Source: Flavobacteriales bacterium (lineage in GTDB: Bacteria; Bacteroidota; Bacteroidia; Flavobacteriales_D; Crocinitomicaceae). Taken from it: a stretch of 64,000 nt of DNA. Location of the stretch: positions 124,001 through 188,000 of the forward strand of contig CANHHA010000001.1 of the NCBI GenBank assembly GCA_947460825.1, in the 5' to 3' direction. The notes under the pieces were generated by a model. The model was not told the DNA's origin. It worked only from the letters and a program-made list of their open reading frames with translations, and searched no databases. A program made the position numbers and the translations under genes. This document shows, one piece after another, positions 19,652 through 33,751 of this stretch. Position 1 is the stretch's first letter. Every line of letters starts with the position of its first letter.

Positions 19652-21547
19652 CTATCTTCGTTTTTTTGTAAAGTCACTTGATGTTGATGGCTTGCGATCT
19701 CCTGAGCCACCACTGGCTTTACGATCTCCACCGCCGCCGAACTTGCGATCTCCACCGCCGCCGAACTTGCGATCTCCACCGCCGCCGAACTTGCGATCTC
19801 CACCACCACCAAACTTGCGATCTCCACCGCCGCCAAACTTGCGATCTCCACCACCACCAAACTTGCGGTCACCGCCGCCACTTCTATTTCCTGCTGAAGA
19901 GCCTTCGCTTTTACCTCCTGCTGAAACTTCAACACTAATGGTATGACCCTCGAATTCAGCACCGTTTAGGTTTTTGAGTACTTTATCAACATGCTCGTTA
20001 TCGGTATCGAAAAATGAGAAAGATTCCTTGATATCAATTCTTCCAACATTTCCGGATTTGACTCCTGTCGTATCGCAAACAACCCGAAGTAATCCACCAA
20101 CGTTCAAGCCATCTCGTTTTCCGAGGTTAACAAAAAACCGCGTTTTATCTTCGTCTCTACGACGATCACCGGTGCCACGTTCTCCAAACCGATCCGCCTT
20201 GGAACCCATTCCTTTTTCTGCGCGCTCCGTAGCATTTAAGTCTCCAGCGCGTTCGTAATATTCGATAAATCGATTAAATTCTGCAGAAACAAACAACTTA
20301 ATTACCTCTTCTTTCGACAAGTCTTGAAAATGACTTAACATATCTGGAAGAAAGGGCTGAATTTCTTTCTCTCGGATCGCAGTTGATGTAACTTTCTCTA
20401 CTAATTTTTTAAGTTGAACTTGACAAATTTCTTGCGCATTAGGAATAACTCCTTTGGTGAAATCTGTGCGCATTTGACGCTCAATACCTTTTACTTTGAA
20501 CAGTTCTTTTTGGGTGATTAAGCTTAGTGACTCCCCTTTTTTTCCTGCCCGAGCTGTTCTACCGCTTCGGTGGGTATAGTTTTCGACATCATCCGGTAAG
20601 TTGTAGTGAATTACGTGAGAAATTGAATCGACGTCTAATCCTCGCGCGGCGACATCGGTAGCAACCAACAACTGTACTTCTTTGCTTCTAAACCGTGCCA
20701 TCACCATATCGCGCATGGCTTGAGAAAGGTCGCCATGTAAGGGTTCAGCGTTGTAACCATCCCTACTTAATTTCTGGGCAACATTGGCAGTTTCATTTTT
20801 TGTCCTGCAAAAAATTAAGCCATAAATCTCTGGATTAAAATCAATTACGCGTTTTAATGCCGGGTAACGATCCTTTTCATAAACCATATAATAAATGTGG
20901 TGAATGTTTTCATTTCCTTGGTTTTTACGCCCAATGGAAACCTCGAGGGGCTCAGACATATAGGTTGCTGCAATGGTAGCTACCTCCTTGGGCATCGTGG
21001 CAGAAAACAACCAAACGCTCTTTGTTTCGGGCGTATACTTTAAAATATCGTCAATATCTTCTTTAAAGCCCATGTTGAGCATTTCATCGGCCTCATCGAG
21101 TACTACGAATTCAATTTCATTTAACTTAATCACCTTGCGGTTCATAAGGTCCATGAGCCGTCCTGGGGTGGCGACAATAATATCAACGCCTTTTCGAATG
21201 TCTGTAATCTGTTTTTTAATATCTACTCCGCCATATACAGGGACTACATTTACTTTCAGGTATTTACCGAAAGTCTTTAAGTCACTCGAAATTTGCAAGC
21301 AAAGTTCACGGGTCGGACAGATAATTACCGCAGACGGGTATAGTTGACCGGGTTGGATGCGACTTAGCAAAGGCAATCCAAAGGCTGCTGTTTTACCAGT
21401 TCCTGTTTGTGCTAGGCCTACAAAATCGCTTTCTTCTTGGAGTAGATGTGGAATCGCTTGTTCCTGGATGGGTGTTGGTTCGGTGTACCCGAGCTCTTTG
21501 ATAGACTGCAGCACCTCATTCCGCAATCCCAACGCTTCAAATGTCAT
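19652..21547 (-). CDS. DEAD-box ATP-dependent RNA helicase with DbpA-type C-terminal RNA-binding domain and RGG-like tail
   Basis: AQTGTGKTAAF, PTRELCLQ, VATPGRLMDL, DEADEML, SATMP, HRSGRTARAGKKG; C-terminal (GGGGDRKF)n. Confidence 0.95.
   Translation of the reverse strand: MTFEALGLRNEVLQSIKELGYTEPTPIQEQAIPHLLQEESDFVGLAQTGTGKTAAFGLPLLSRIQPGQLYPSAVIICPTRELCLQISSDLKTFGKYLKVNVVPVYGGVDIKKQITDIRKGVDIIVATPGRLMDLMNRKVIKLNEIEFVVLDEADEMLNMGFKEDIDDILKYTPETKSVWLFSATMPKEVATIAATYMSEPLEVSIGRKNQGNENIHHIYYMVYEKDRYPALKRVIDFNPEIYGLIFCRTKNETANVAQKLSRDGYNAEPLHGDLSQAMRDMVMARFRSKEVQLLVATDVAARGLDVDSISHVIHYNLPDDVENYTHRSGRTARAGKKGESLSLITQKELFKVKGIERQMRTDFTKGVIPNAQEICQVQLKKLVEKVTSTAIREKEIQPFLPDMLSHFQDLSKEEVIKLFVSAEFNRFIEYYERAGDLNATERAEKGMGSKADRFGERGTGDRRRDEDKTRFFVNLGKRDGLNVGGLLRVVCDTTGVKSGNVGRIDIKESFSFFDTDNEHVDKVLKNLNGAEFEGHTISVEVSAGGKSEGSSAGNRSGGGDRKFGGGGDRKFGGGGDRKFGGGGDRKFGGGGDRKFGGGGDRKFGGGGDRKASGGSGDRKPSTSSDFTKKRR
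19721..19880 (-). repeat. 24-bp in-frame tandem repeat encoding (GGGGDRKF)n
   Basis: Five contiguous full 24-bp units (19741-19860: acttgcgatctccaccgccgccga and variants) plus degenerate flanking units. Confidence 0.93.
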
Positions 21548-24474: not shown

Positions 24475-25614
24475 CTAAAAACTCGCTAATTTTTCTTTTT
24501 TAAACAGTCTTCTGTAACAATTATAAATCCAATTGAGCCGTTTTTCATCGTTCTGGAAATCCGAATACCACCTTGGGGGTCCGGTAATTATTTCATGAAA
24601 TTCTTGCTCAGTAAACTCAAGTTTCTTGGCAATGTATTTCATTTCAGAGTGGGTCCGTTCAACGGTATATGGCTTTACCTTAAGAACTTCTAATGCCTGT
24701 AATCTTGTAACTGTTCCTGCACAAATTTGGGAGGACAAGGTAGCCTTTCGGTAATCAATGTTAAATTTTTCGTAGAGGTAATAGGATTGTATAAATCCGG
24801 TGTATTTGGATTCATAGTGTTTTCCTCCATACGCTTTCCAATCCAATTTTTCCTTCAGAAATTCAATACTCTCTGTCTTTTCAAACGGAAGATAATTCAA
24901 GAAATATATCATGTGGATACCTTTAAACACCTTGTAGTATGTTTCTCTTAGAAAACCAAAGGTTGGAAAAGTCTTCAATTGAACCTTCCCGAAATTTGCA
25001 CAGATGTATTTAAAATAGGTAAGGTCTTTGGCATTATAGTGCCAATGTTTTGGAAGAATTCCTTCGGTAGCAAAATTACCACCGCTCAAGATATACGTTA
25101 CCCCGTATTTTGCTGCTATTTTGTGCAATACGGACAGAATCGCAATATCTGTTGGCGTATCGGCTTCGGGAATGCTTGCCTTCAGAAATGCCCGTTGAAT
25201 TTCTTTAAATTCTTGCCAATCCAACACCACACATTCATAATCAATATCCAATTTAGTTGCAATATTCCGAATATTCTGGTTTGCCTCTATCGAATTCCAT
25301 CCGTTATCCATATGCACAGCCAAGACTCTTAGTCCTAATTCTTTAGCTTTCCATGCAGTATAGGATGAATCTACCCCCCCACTTAACCCAACAACGCAAT
25401 CATAAGCTTTTCCGATACCATTCTTTTTAATCACTTGAACAAGCTTTTCTAGGGCAAGATCACTTTCAAGGCCTTTATAACTGTAGTTAGCGCGTTTGCT
25501 TAGAAATTCGGTGCAGTGATTGCAATTCCCTTCCTTATCAAAATAAATTCCAGGGTCACTGGTATCCATTACGCAACGGTTACAAAGTTGATAAGGTACA
25601 AGATGCTTAATCAT
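24475..25614 (-). CDS. N-acetyl sugar amidotransferase (WbpG/PseA-like)
   Basis: LCNRCVMDTSDPGIYFDKEGNCNHCTEF, VVGLSGGVDSSYTAWKAKELGLRVLAVHMDNGWNS (PP-loop ATPase). Adjacent to HisF/HisH-like partners. Start at the internal ATG. Confidence 0.92.
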   Translation of the reverse strand: MIKHLVPYQLCNRCVMDTSDPGIYFDKEGNCNHCTEFLSKRANYSYKGLESDLALEKLVQVIKKNGIGKAYDCVVGLSGGVDSSYTAWKAKELGLRVLAVHMDNGWNSIEANQNIRNIATKLDIDYECVVLDWQEFKEIQRAFLKASIPEADTPTDIAILSVLHKIAAKYGVTYILSGGNFATEGILPKHWHYNAKDLTYFKYICANFGKVQLKTFPTFGFLRETYYKVFKGIHMIYFLNYLPFEKTESIEFLKEKLDWKAYGGKHYESKYTGFIQSYYLYEKFNIDYRKATLSSQICAGTVTRLQALEVLKVKPYTVERTHSEMKYIAKKLEFTEQEFHEIITGPPRWYSDFQNDEKRLNWIYNCYRRLFKKEKLASF

Positions 25615-25623
25615 AATTTCGCG

Positions 25624-25631
25624 CAAAGATA
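25624..25631 (-). promoter_or_regulatory. TAnnTTTG promoter element (TATCTTTG) upstream of the WbpG-like gene
   Basis: Reverse complement reads TATCTTTG-CGCGAAATT-ATG. Confidence 0.5.
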
Positions 25632-25671
25632 GTTCCCACAACACTATCTTTTCACATAATTAACAATTATG

Positions 25672-26430
25672 TTAAAATAAAAGTTTTAATTCTTCACTGG
25701 ATGGGTAATTAATAAGCACTCCCCTATTTTTTCCTTGAAATACAAACAAACTGCCTGCACCATAGCCATTCAGGTTCAATGTGTGATGTGCTTGTTTTAT
25801 TTCGTCTGTAGAACTAAGCCCCCCAATACCGGTAATGGGAATCGAAAGTTGGCGTGTAATTTCAAACAGCAACTCCTGGTCCAATCCCATAAATGTTCCG
25901 TCTCGGTCTACTGATTGAATCAGCAGCTCACCGGCTCCATAGGCTTCCATTTGTTTAGCAAATTGAAAAATATCCGTATTCGCTGTTTTTTTTGCATTTT
26001 GGTACACAAGCTTTTGTTTTCCTAAAAAAGTACGCTTAACATCAATACAAACAACGATAGTAGATCTCCCAAAACGTTGACTGGCTTCCCTTACAAAGGC
26101 TGGATTAACGGCTGCTATCGAACCTAATACGACACGTTCCGCACCTACTTCTATGAGCTGTTGAATTTGATCTATGGTTGAAATTCCACCACCAACTGAA
26201 AATGGCATGTTCGCCTCCTCTCCTATTTCTCTTACCAAATCGATTGAGATGCAGCGATTTTCAATGCTTGCATTAATGTCTAACAACAACAATTCATCTG
26301 CTTTATACTCATTAAACAAATGCACCGCATGCATCGGATCACCGATATACGTAGGCGAAGAAAACTTAATTGTTTTAACAAGGCCTTGACCTTGCAATAA
26401 TAAACATGGAATTATTCGTGGACGATACAT
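25672..26430 (-). CDS. Imidazole-glycerol-phosphate synthase cyclase-like protein (HisF paralogue, sugar-amidation type)
   Basis: RPRIIPCLLLQGQGLVKTIKFSSPTYIGDPMHAVHLFNEYKADELLLLDI, VGGGISTIDQI, GAERVVLGSIA. Position next to the WbpG-like gene. Confidence 0.9.
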   Translation of the reverse strand: MYRPRIIPCLLLQGQGLVKTIKFSSPTYIGDPMHAVHLFNEYKADELLLLDINASIENRCISIDLVREIGEEANMPFSVGGGISTIDQIQQLIEVGAERVVLGSIAAVNPAFVREASQRFGRSTIVVCIDVKRTFLGKQKLVYQNAKKTANTDIFQFAKQMEAYGAGELLIQSVDRDGTFMGLDQELLFEITRQLSIPITGIGGLSSTDEIKQAHHTLNLNGYGAGSLFVFQGKNRGVLINYPSSEELKLLF

Positions 26431-27047
26431 GAATTAATGAAATTTGAAAGAATGCCTTGACCGTTTCCATGACTTTTTTCGGGATGAAATTGGAGTCCAA
26501 TCAAGTGATTACGACACAATCCAGAAACAAATTCAATCCCATACGATGTAGTACATAAGACCTCTTCCTCCATCGCTTCAACAACCCCAAAACCATGAAC
26601 AAAATACATTTCATCTGAAGCGGAAATATCGGCAAGGATTTTATGGTCATTTTTTACAGTAAGGGTGTTCCACCCCAGGTGAGGAATTTTAATACTCGGT
26701 TCAGTGTAGGCTTGTAAGTTAATGGTCTTGCATTTAAACCAACCTAACCCTTCACAATCGCCTTCTTCACTGAAAGATGTCATCAATTGCATTCCCAGAC
26801 AAATACCAAGAATAGATCTTTTTTCTTCCAGTGCAAGGTAATTCAACACCTCGATTAACTCATTGCGTTTAAGTTGCTCCATGGCTTGACCAAAATGACC
26901 GACCCCAGGTAGAATTAAATGTGTTGCAGTCAAAAGTTCCGACGCCTTGTTACTAATAGTCACGGGAATATTATGGGACGAAACAATTCGTTTAAGGGAA
27001 TGAAGATTCCCCATGCCATAATCAACAATCACAATCTTTCTATTCAT
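26412..27047 (-). CDS. Imidazole-glycerol-phosphate synthase glutaminase-like protein (HisH paralogue)
   Basis: IVDYGMGNLHSLKRIV, LPGVGHFGQAM, LGICLGMQLM, LQFHPEKSHGNG (class I glutamine amidotransferase triad). Confidence 0.92.
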   Translation of the reverse strand: MNRKIVIVDYGMGNLHSLKRIVSSHNIPVTISNKASELLTATHLILPGVGHFGQAMEQLKRNELIEVLNYLALEEKRSILGICLGMQLMTSFSEEGDCEGLGWFKCKTINLQAYTEPSIKIPHLGWNTLTVKNDHKILADISASDEMYFVHGFGVVEAMEEEVLCTTSYGIEFVSGLCRNHLIGLQFHPEKSHGNGQGILSNFINSCIVHE

Positions 27048-28386: not shown

Positions 28387-28803
28387 TCAAAGATACAAAA
28401 TCCCATCGTGTAGCTGCCGATAGATTTCATTCAATTGATGCATAATAACCTCTGCTGCAAAACGACTTTTTGCTGTCTCACGGATTGTTTCCGGATCATA
28501 GCTATCCAACGATTGAATCATATGAATCAACCCCTTAGCGAAGGCCTCTGGACTACATTCCGTTACTATACCCGTGTTTTGGGTAACGATATCCCTTACC
28601 CCTCCCGAATCTGTAACAACCACGGGTTTCCCCATCGCTTGCGCTTCAGCTATGGTCAAACCAAAGGTTTCTACGTTACTCGTTGAAAGAATCGGCAATA
28701 AATGGAATGAATTGTGAGGAGGCCTATAATTAGTCGATAATCCAATGTCCCCCTTTCTGTTCCTCCATGTGTTCTTAATACTTAGAAACCTACGAACGTA
28801 CAC
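28387..28803 (-). pseudogene. C-terminal remnant of a family-4 glycosyltransferase
   Basis: Only the C-terminal part ([43 protein letters not shown]) is present; no GT-B N-terminal domain upstream. Confidence 0.75.
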
Positions 28804-28862: not shown

Positions 28863-30338
28863 TTAATTTTTACGTTGGTAAATCAACTGAAAAGCATGAG
28901 CACGTGCTTTTGCGATATCACTTTGCATATCGGAAAGAACGGCCAAAGCTTTAATCATGGGCGAATGGTCGAAATTATCTATCAACCAATGGGTTCTTTG
29001 GCCATAAAAATAATTCTCAGAAATTTCCGCTTTAGCCAAATCGGAATAAACATCTACCAATGCGTAAAGTTCTGTTTCATTGACTTTGTTTTTCAAGAGC
29101 AGCTCCATTAATTGTTCTTCATTGCTTACGGAAACATTTTTGGGCATAGTTAACCGGTATTGACCATAGGTTGCGCAGAGTTCTAAAAGTTGGTTTTGGA
29201 AAGCCACGTATGGATTCCAAAGTTTTTGAATACCGACTCCGTTCTGCTCAAAATCATCGTAACCTCGAATCCCTAACTCTCGCATCGGTGTATCATAATC
29301 ATCTTTGGACATGATTGCATAAAAATTGAGGGAAGTAGGGATCAAGGGGTTTTTATCGTCGTACTTACTAACCAATAGGAAATTTTCACCGGTGGACCTA
29401 AGGTCTTCTCCTGCTTTTTCTAACAGAAGTATTTTAATCTGGTCTATGTTCCTAATAACCTCAATGGACGCTGCATTGATTTGAAGCATAGCAGCTTGTT
29501 TTACCTTATCGGCTTCGCTGAGGGAAAGGCCCATTTTTTGGCGTTGGTTAAATGAATTTAACATTCTGTCGCCGCGCTTTACGTAGTTCAGGGTTTTTAC
29601 ATGAACCATGTTTCCATAATTCAAATCATTCGAAATAATGCGTAAACTCCGGTTATCTCTCAAAAGCAAGAAACTACCGACAAGAATCAAAACGGCTAAT
29701 TTGAAGATCGAATGATTGCCGATTAAATCAATGTTTTTGCGCTTCAAATATCCATAAGCAATAATTACAAAAGGAAGTGTACCAAGACCAATAATGATCA
29801 TCTCATCAGTTCCAGGCCACTTCATCAGAAAAAATAGACTGGACAAGATTGTCACGGACAACCCTAAGAAGAAAATAGAACTTGAAACTGCAATTCTAGT
29901 GAATGGTGAACCCGCAGGTAAAAACGGTGCTCCAGCAGGTTTTACCATAAAACCTTTTAGCATAGAAACTAACGACAAAATCCCTATTCCTAAAATGATC
30001 ATTTCATTGCATCCAGGCCAATGCATTGTTTTGAAGAGGAATCCAATAATCAAGACCGCCAAGGACAAATAGGAACAGAAATTAAGCCACACAGCTTGTC
30101 GCGGAGTCAATCCTAAGGCGCTTTCCTTGGGAACTTGAAATGCTGCGATACATAGGATGGTTGCGGTAGATTGTAAACTTATTATTAACAGCGAATTCGC
30201 TCCTGGCCAGTGCATGATTTTGAACAATAAACTGATAATCGAGGTTAAAATAATTACATAATAGGCAATATCCATTATTTGTATCCCTTTTTCGGTGCTT
30301 AAAAAATGGCCTACTGAAGTTCCTTGTTTTCTTGACAT
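28863..30338 (-). CDS. GldL/GldM-like hybrid membrane protein (three GldL_N-like 2-TM repeats, one further TM, GldM N-terminal-like periplasmic domain)
   Basis: FKIMHWPGANSLLIISL, FKTMHWPGCNEMIILGI and FFLMKWPGTDEMIIIGL repeats; then FKLAVLILVGSFLLL TM; C-terminal HWLIDNFDHSPMIKALAVLSDMQSDIAKARAHAF resembles the GldM NFEGxPLxAxLxxLxxMQSDxxxxE motif. Start placed at internal ATG 30336-30338. Confidence 0.7.
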   Translation of the reverse strand: MSRKQGTSVGHFLSTEKGIQIMDIAYYVIILTSIISLLFKIMHWPGANSLLIISLQSTATILCIAAFQVPKESALGLTPRQAVWLNFCSYLSLAVLIIGFLFKTMHWPGCNEMIILGIGILSLVSMLKGFMVKPAGAPFLPAGSPFTRIAVSSSIFFLGLSVTILSSLFFLMKWPGTDEMIIIGLGTLPFVIIAYGYLKRKNIDLIGNHSIFKLAVLILVGSFLLLRDNRSLRIISNDLNYGNMVHVKTLNYVKRGDRMLNSFNQRQKMGLSLSEADKVKQAAMLQINAASIEVIRNIDQIKILLLEKAGEDLRSTGENFLLVSKYDDKNPLIPTSLNFYAIMSKDDYDTPMRELGIRGYDDFEQNGVGIQKLWNPYVAFQNQLLELCATYGQYRLTMPKNVSVSNEEQLMELLLKNKVNETELYALVDVYSDLAKAEISENYFYGQRTHWLIDNFDHSPMIKALAVLSDMQSDIAKARAHAFQLIYQRKN

Positions 30339-30381: not shown

Positions 30382-30486
30382 TCAACCTTTCTTTTGAAAA
30401 ATTTTAAAATTCCTCGCACGGGGCAGAAGTCCACCTACCGATACGTAGGGAGGAAAGTCGTAGGCAAGGATTAGGATTTTTTTCAC
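30382..30486 (-). pseudogene. N-terminal remnant of a GT-B glycosyltransferase
   Basis: GTG at 30484-30486: (V/M)KKILILAYDFPPYVSVGGLLPRARNFKIFQ..., same N-terminus as the GT at 27049-28383, then truncated. Confidence 0.75.
30428..30473. repeat. 46-bp perfect direct repeat, copy 2
   Basis: Identical to 28325-28370; flanking bases differ on both sides. Confidence 0.97.
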
Positions 30487-31667: not shown

Positions 31668-32583
31668 AACAGCCAAAATTTATGTAGCAGGTCACAACGG
31701 AATGGTAGGATCAGCAATAGTGCGCAAATTACAGCACGAGGGATACACCAATTTGTTGCTGCGTTCATCCAAAGAATTGGATTTGAGAAATCAAGAAGCA
31801 GTGAATCAGTTTTTTGAAACGGAACGACCAGAATATGTTTTTTTAGCTGCGGCAAAGGTGGGTGGAATTCACGCGAACAATACATTTAAGGCGGATTTTA
31901 TCTACGAAAACTTGATGATGGAATGTAATGTGATCCATGCGGCGTATCAAACAGGCGTTCAAAAACTGCTCTTTTTAGGCTCTTCGTGTATCTATCCAAA
32001 GTTTGCTGAACAACCCATTTCAGAAGACAGCTTGTTGACAGGAGCCTTGGAACCAACAAATGAACCTTATGCCCTAGCAAAGATCGCAGGATTAAAAATG
32101 TGTGATTACTACCGAGAGCAATATGGTTGCGATTTCATTTCGTTGATGCCAACCAATCTGTATGGACCAAATGATAATTATGATTTACAGAATTCTCATG
32201 TGATACCGGCAATGCTGCGTAAATTTCACGAAGCAAAGGAAGCAAATAAACCCACAGTTGAACTGTGGGGAACAGGTTCCCCACGCCGAGAGTTTTTGCA
32301 TGTGGATGACTTGGCCGATGCTTGCAACTATTTCATGTTGAATCATTCAGAAGCTGGCCACATCAATATTGGCACAGGGGAAGATATTTCGATTAAAGAA
32401 TTGGCTGAGATGATTCAAAATATAGTTGGCTATACAGGTGAAATCAGTTGGAATACTCAATACCCTGACGGAACACCACGAAAATTATTGAATGTGGATA
32501 AGGCAACGAAGTTGGGATGGCATCCTTCAATTTCTCTTCAAAAAGGACTAATTGATGTTTATACAAAAAAATTCATTTGTTGA
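31660..32583 (+). CDS. fcl: GDP-L-fucose synthase
   Basis: [63 protein letters not shown]. Start at internal ATG 31660. Confidence 0.97.
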
Positions 32584-33751
32584 CACTTGAGTAATAACTT
32601 ATTAGTCGTTGATAGATCTTCTCTGAATAGAATTTTGAAAAGGTTTTTTGTCTGATATACTCATGATCGTACTTTGAAACATTTTGTTGTATTTGAATGA
32701 GCCCATCTGCCAGTTCGTCAATTGAATGATCAGTAATAATACCAGTTTCTGCATCAACAATATCTCTAACCCCGCCTGAGTCTGTTACAACTACGGGTTT
32801 TCCCATGGCTTGAGCCTCTGCGACTGTCAAACCGAATGTTTCCAGTTGACTGGTACTTACTAAAACATGATGTTTTGAAATTTGCTCACGAACCTCTGCT
32901 CGACTCAATCTAGGCAAAAACAAGACAGAATTTTGAATACCAAATTGGCGAACCATTTCGGACAATCTTTCTTTTTCAGAACCTTCACCAGCAATCGTCA
33001 ATTTAGAATTTGGATAAACTTTAAGCAACTCGCAACAAGCTGTTAACAAAAGATCGACGTTCTTTAAAGGAATCAAATTGCAGATAATAATGTATAAAAA
33101 CTCATCCTTTACGCAATTCTGAGTCAATGGAGACTTAAAAAAAGAAGTATCAACAACATTGGAGAGAACCTCATATCGTTGGTTAGATTCAATACAATAC
33201 TGTTGCAATGTTTTTTCCAATGCAAAACGACTTACAAAAAACACATTCTGTGCAGACTGATACACCGACTTTATGATTTTTATATCTTGACGTGAATATT
33301 GTTCTGGATTGAAAATAAGCCCAGATGTATGTTCCGTATGAAAAAACGGTTTGCCAAATTTTTCACCCAAGTGCATCGCTATGAATCCACCCATAAATAG
33401 TGCATGGCTATGAATAAGATCAAAATCTGCTGCATTGATTTTATACTTTGCAAATGCTTTTATGGAAAATCTCAATAACTTTTGGTAAGCAATACCTCTA
33501 AATCCGGGTAGAGTTGGCGTAACACCAACACGAATAACATCTACTCCACTTCGCTTTGTTTTTTGACACGTATCTTTTTGATTCAATGATTCTAAAAATG
33601 TACCCATTAAGAAGGTATGCAGCACAGTCACTCGATGACCAGCTTTAATTAACATCTGCGCCTGCTCTTCCACGAAAGATCCATTAGTAGGATGCTGATC
33701 ATCAGGATACCACGAAGCCACAATCAATATATTCAATGGTCTAGCGCTCAT
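32573..33751 (-). CDS. Glycosyltransferase family 4
   Basis: [62 protein letters not shown]. Confidence 0.92.

Follow-up and report, generated by a model that had tools for sequence, protein, structure and literature searches.

Rotary motors of 5:2 stoichiometry, such as MotAB, ExbBD, TolQR and GldLM, are force generators. In the motor of the T9SS and of gliding, GldL (or PorL) forms the ring and GldM (or PorM) the axle. The glutamate E49 of GldL is strictly conserved and is needed for secretion (PMC8986121).

The gene described here lies in a stretch of 64,000 nucleotides (hereafter, the window) from a metagenome-assembled genome of the Crocinitomicaceae. Its product shares with GldL the two-helix unit, the FK-x-HWPG loop, the GldL_N family and the fold of PorL (7sat), but it has three such units per chain, lacks both the TM2 glutamate and the long cytoplasmic tail, and is encoded outside gldKLMN. 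With GldM it shares a single TM helix followed by domain D1, a match to GldM_1st and structural matches by Foldseek (6ys8, 7sau, 6ey4); unlike GldM, it has neither Arg9 nor domains D2-D4, carries the helix behind GldL units and falls below the NCBIfam GldM cut-off. In summary, the window protein derives from GldL and GldM, joined in one chain, and lacks the known proton residues.

Domain structure of the window protein

The open reading frame (28863..30338, minus strand) runs from an ATG at 30338 to a stop at 28863 and encodes 491 aa; an alternative GTG start at 30434 would give a protein of 523 aa. The three GldL-type units, all on the same strand, cover residues 22-69 (30132..30275, with FKIMHWPGAN at 39-48), 79-133 (29940..30104, FKTMHWPGCN at 102-111) and 145-200 (29739..29906, FFLMKWPGTD at 169-178). 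The position of E49 is occupied in them by T58, L121 and L188, respectively, so that the TM2 glutamate, which the earlier note had described as seemingly absent, is indeed missing. A seventh membrane helix in the place of the GldM TM helix (residues 210-227, 29658..29711) leads into a GldM D1-type periplasmic domain (residues 228-488, 28875..29657). The chain stops after D1, and the D2-D4 shaft is missing.

This arrangement of three two-helix units, a seventh helix and a GldM-like domain had been read from the sequence in the earlier note, and Pfam, AlphaFold and Foldseek all agree with it. GldL_N matched in three stretches (E 8.5e-18, 64.7 bits against a cut-off of 24), and GldM_1st matched residues 445-484 (E 6.6e-7, 30 bits against a cut-off of 25). 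The note had allowed that neither family might match, or that the resemblance might be confined to a generic HWPG membrane loop; the opposite was found, and HMM and fold each identify the GldM part independently, which rules out the generic loop. The score against the NCBIfam GldL equivalog, which is a sum over the three repeats, was 68.2 bits (cut-off 68.3), while that against the GldM equivalog was 21.9 bits (cut-off 180). The window D1 (residues 228-489) is 37% identical to that of the canonical GldM of the same genome.

The AlphaFold model (mean pLDDT 73.9) has seven long membrane helices (16-41, 47-68, 79-105, 110-131, 145-172, 177-200 and 210-227), as expected for a topology of 3 x 2 + 1 TM helices, and a soluble C-terminal part of about 260 aa that is mainly helical. 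The structure comparison proposed in the earlier note returned as top PDB matches the GldM chains of the GldLM structures 6ys8, 7sau, 7sax and 7saz (probability 1.00, E from 0.012, the best value being just 0.012 for a model built on an alignment of six rows). Further matches were the GldM/PorM periplasmic domains 6ey4, 7cmg and 7sb2, and a single unit superposed on PorL (7sat_D/E) at 2.1-2.5 Å.

Canonical GldM and a GldN-like protein are encoded elsewhere in the genome, on contig C38, which starts within the 3' end of GldL, ahead of gldM and gldN; no gldKLMN operon context is present at the window gene. In addition, contig C26 carries another fusion with the architecture of the window protein (402 aa), separated from porT by a single gene. 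The window gene is thus an extra and not a replacement, and misannotation of a canonical GldL or GldM is ruled out by the canonical GldM and by the loss of E49. A second GldM_2nd match (E 2.5e-8) was observed outside the window, at 7675-7962 of contig C11, in an open frame of 326 aa. A plasmid-borne element was rejected, the plasmid collection having given no match.

Relatives of the fusion and their origins

Full-length fusions of the window type (lone fusions) were found in at least nine genomes, all of the window's own genus among the matches listed: its own (two copies), G239, G238, G172, G212, G232, G192, G222 and G228, the last with an in-frame stop. Nine of these proteins (the two own copies and seven others, G228 being left out) were examined in detail, and the count is three GldL units plus one GldM-type helix in all nine, although unit 1 is degenerate in those of loci L033 and L038. 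The G239 relative, from another species, is full-length and 73% identical to the window protein; comparison of the two genes gave dN 0.152 and dS 0.671, i.e. a dN/dS of about 0.23, which was below 0.5 in every segment and indicates purifying selection. Matches to GldL_N and GldM_1st above the cut-offs in one protein, together with this relative and this ratio, place the GldL-GldM identity above chance.

The G172 fusion is longer (755 aa) and retains the GldM domain D2. It is flanked (L033, 399-6882) by two small proteins that weakly match the C-terminal part of GldM and by two larger ones of no assigned kind, a possible second, divergent motor cluster.

A scan of named genomes revealed a second kind of GldL-GldM protein, linked to PadR, in many Bacteroidota. 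Type A has at its N-terminus a helical region that is HAAS-like and continues with three GldL units, a helix resembling that of GldM (e.g. LLAMNVSK, compared with LLALNVSK in GldM) and D1. Type B, encoded directly after A, contains two GldL units ahead of its helix and D1, while type S stands alone as one gene with two units. Pfam GldL_N matched 13/13 A and 13/13 B proteins, GldM_1st 11/13 and 8/13, respectively. For one A protein, an AlphaFold model (pLDDT 79.9) matched GldM of 7sau by Foldseek with E 3.9e-7 and a TM-score of 0.83 by target, and in profile comparison type B matched the lone fusions with 99.8% probability.

Of the 55 relatives that combine a HAAS-like N-terminus with GldL units, 49 are immediately preceded by a PadR-type gene, identified by its motif, and two of the six exceptions start less than 100 bases from the end of the locus. 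The order of PadR gene, HAAS-like N-terminus and membrane sensor is that of the HAAS-PadR systems, which have a fused membrane sensor and are described as an alternative to two-component systems (PMC11237479); these relatives differ from them in the GldLM-like sensor part. We call the N-terminus HAAS-like only, because the Pfam HAAS-type model did not match it, a 'permease prefix' match stayed below the cut-off, and a custom HMM of it matched the N-terminus of FtsX/MacB permeases. Such a domain also stands ahead of FtsX/MacB-type permeases in Bacteroidota (L205, 2197-4908; L206, 1766-4495). At the window gene, neither an output domain, nor a PadR gene, nor a HAAS-like domain was found. In the open-access journal literature searched, no paper joined GldL to PadR or used the terms GldL-like and GldM-like.

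Where a HAAS-like protein is followed by an adjacent downstream gene with GldL units, 28 of 29 pairs have 3+2 units, the remaining one being a 1+1 fragment pair. It should be noted that both canonical and fused units went into the iterative construction of the unit HMM, which is therefore partly circular, yet the motifs are visible by eye, and that the 28 pairs share ancestry and are not 28 independent events. In the tails checked, one hydrophobic helix follows the units in each chain, giving 10+2 helices as in GldL5GldM2. D1 is gone in L185, L188, L190 and L191, where the 3+2 units and both axle-like helices are retained; the B gene of L192 is cut by the locus end, and A-type genes without an adjacent B occur in L098, L187 and L189. 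No natural single chain of five units was found among the ORFs of the loci searched. The A+B pairs, with five ring units and two axle helices in total, would form a 5:2 ring, differing from the known motors in being split 3+2 over two fused chains and in lacking the TM2 glutamate; the window protein, in contrast, is 3:1. If true, this constant division into 3+2 and 1+1 would support the 5:2 stoichiometry with genetic evidence from nature.

A tree built on the GldM helix and D1, which contains long branches, places the lone fusions with GldM of the Crocinitomicaceae type (support 98/99) and leaves types A, B and S outside. A single clade of all fusions was rejected (AU p 0.002), whereas one origin of all lone fusions was not (p 0.45); joining the window and G239 proteins alone to the PadR types gave p 0.09, short of a rejection. 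Canonical and PadR-like HMMs gave mixed matches as to the provenance of the fusion units. The tree placement and the topology tests point to two origins of GldL-GldM fusions, with the lone fusions likely separate from the PadR-linked type, though less firmly so for the window gene itself. The lone fusions would most likely have arisen by duplication and fusion of T9SS motor genes within one Crocinitomicaceae genus.

Possible functions of the window protein

The E49 position holds a glutamate in all 45 canonical GldL proteins and an acidic residue in 0/116 fused units, while the K and H of the loop are retained in 106/116 and 109/116 units. Likewise, the Arg9 that stands ahead of the GldM TM helix is present in 82/82 canonical GldM and in 0/9 lone fusions, and is also missing from the type A and type B groups; type S proteins have a K or R near this column, where the alignment placement is ambiguous. 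These residues suggest that the window protein does not use protons, although the loss of E49 may still leave another proton route. As the D2-D4 shaft is missing too, torque generation appears unlikely.

The protein would then be a 'pseudo-motor' in one chain, in which three GldL-type hairpins, one GldM-type helix and D1 keep the motor's membrane and D1 fold, whereas the proton-carrying residues and the periplasmic shaft are lost, so that most likely no torque is produced. It would assemble in the inner membrane through its GldL- and GldM-type helices and D1, and would monitor or adjust the envelope or the genuine T9SS motor. We prefer to read the protein as a GldLM-derived sensor or modulator rather than a motor, with confidence and doubt about evenly balanced. 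This reading draws on analogy to homologous GldL-GldM chains that bear or adjoin signal outputs. Besides the PadR-linked proteins with their HAAS-like domain, these include an 814 aa protein (L204, 1721-4165, minus strand). The units, helix and D1 in the N-terminal part of this protein align with type A (99% by hhalign; A3 profile E 1.3e-20), and a second membrane helix leads on to a histidine kinase (HATPase_c 1.3e-29; HisKA a little below cut-off). In L214 (1501-3714, plus strand), two GldL-like units (GldL_N 22.1 bits, just below cut-off), GldM_1st (3.4e-20) and SpoIIE (1.6e-17) are found in one chain. By these matches, one predicted input module carries three kinds of output: PadR, histidine kinase and SpoIIE phosphatase. 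Of the roles suggested in the earlier note, that of a regulator gains from these relatives, while that of a non-canonical motor is improbable given the missing proton residues. A limit to the sensor role is that the tree appears to place the output-bearing branch apart from the window protein.

More tentatively, and with the balance somewhat against it, Bacteroidota may have repeatedly made GldLM into proton-dead receptors. The A+B pairs would be covalently fixed 5:2 rings that sense the envelope or the T9SS and signal through PadR, histidine kinase or SpoIIE, and the window protein would be an independently evolved member. A ring-and-axle family that has lost the proton residues and is coupled to signalling outputs would be to motors what pseudokinases are to kinases, and would offer a possible, testable route by which Bacteroidota sense the state of the T9SS or envelope. 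Co-occurrence with the T9SS (20/20 genomes) was discarded as evidence of a link, as GldM is common in these groups.

Second to a sensor or modulator we rank a throttling subunit of the real motor, which is unlikely but deserves consideration. One fusion chain would combine with two GldL and one GldM into a mixed 5:2 motor that has fewer sites for protons and acts as a throttle or brake on the T9SS. The sums 3+2 and 1+1 suit this stoichiometry, the D1 of lone fusions lies in the tree within the GldM of this lineage, and no 2-unit partner protein for the window fusion was found in its own genome; however, Arg9 is lost, the loops have diverged, most of all in unit 3, and one genome holds two 3:1 copies. 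It is improbable that the protein works as a non-canonical motor through other protonatable residues: the fold and most of the loop K and H residues are kept, but the essential E49 is lost with no acidic substitute at its position, and the shaft that would transmit torque is missing. The restriction to one genus (among the matches listed), the long branches, the degenerate unit motifs and the stop in G228 could also indicate a decaying, functionless duplicate, which we hold to be very doubtful, considering the common 3+1 layout of the nine lone fusions and the low dN/dS in every segment.

Gene neighbourhood and surface glycans

From the setting of the window gene among glycosyltransferase genes, the earlier note had raised a possible link to surface-polysaccharide export or anchoring. 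Such neighbours occur only at the window copy and at one relative, and 4/9 lone fusions, including the own second copy and the 73% relative, adjoin instead the block that contains porT, a T9SS gene, or genes flanking it. The four share a syntenic site, where porT is followed by the FAD-dehydrogenase gene and then by the fusion, which lies ahead of mnmA in three cases (the L166 contig starts inside the FAD gene, with porT itself outside the contig). We count this position beside the porT block in favour of the sensor or modulator reading. The glycan setting is not general to lone fusions and the glycan link is weak, so that a scaffold exporting or anchoring the polysaccharide encoded nearby is the least probable of the explanations considered.

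Close to the window gene, a group-1 glycosyltransferase fragment of 138 aa (28387-28803, minus strand) resembles the C-terminal half of the intact gene at 32573-33751 and looks like a gene remnant within the glycan locus. HisH-like, HisF-like and N-acetyl-sugar-amidotransferase-like genes stand consecutively at 24475-27047 (minus strand), outside a histidine operon, a row that presumably suggests an amidated sugar in the surface glycan. Further away, a DbpA-type DEAD-box helicase (19652-21547, minus strand) carries tandem GGGGDRKF repeats close to its C-terminus.
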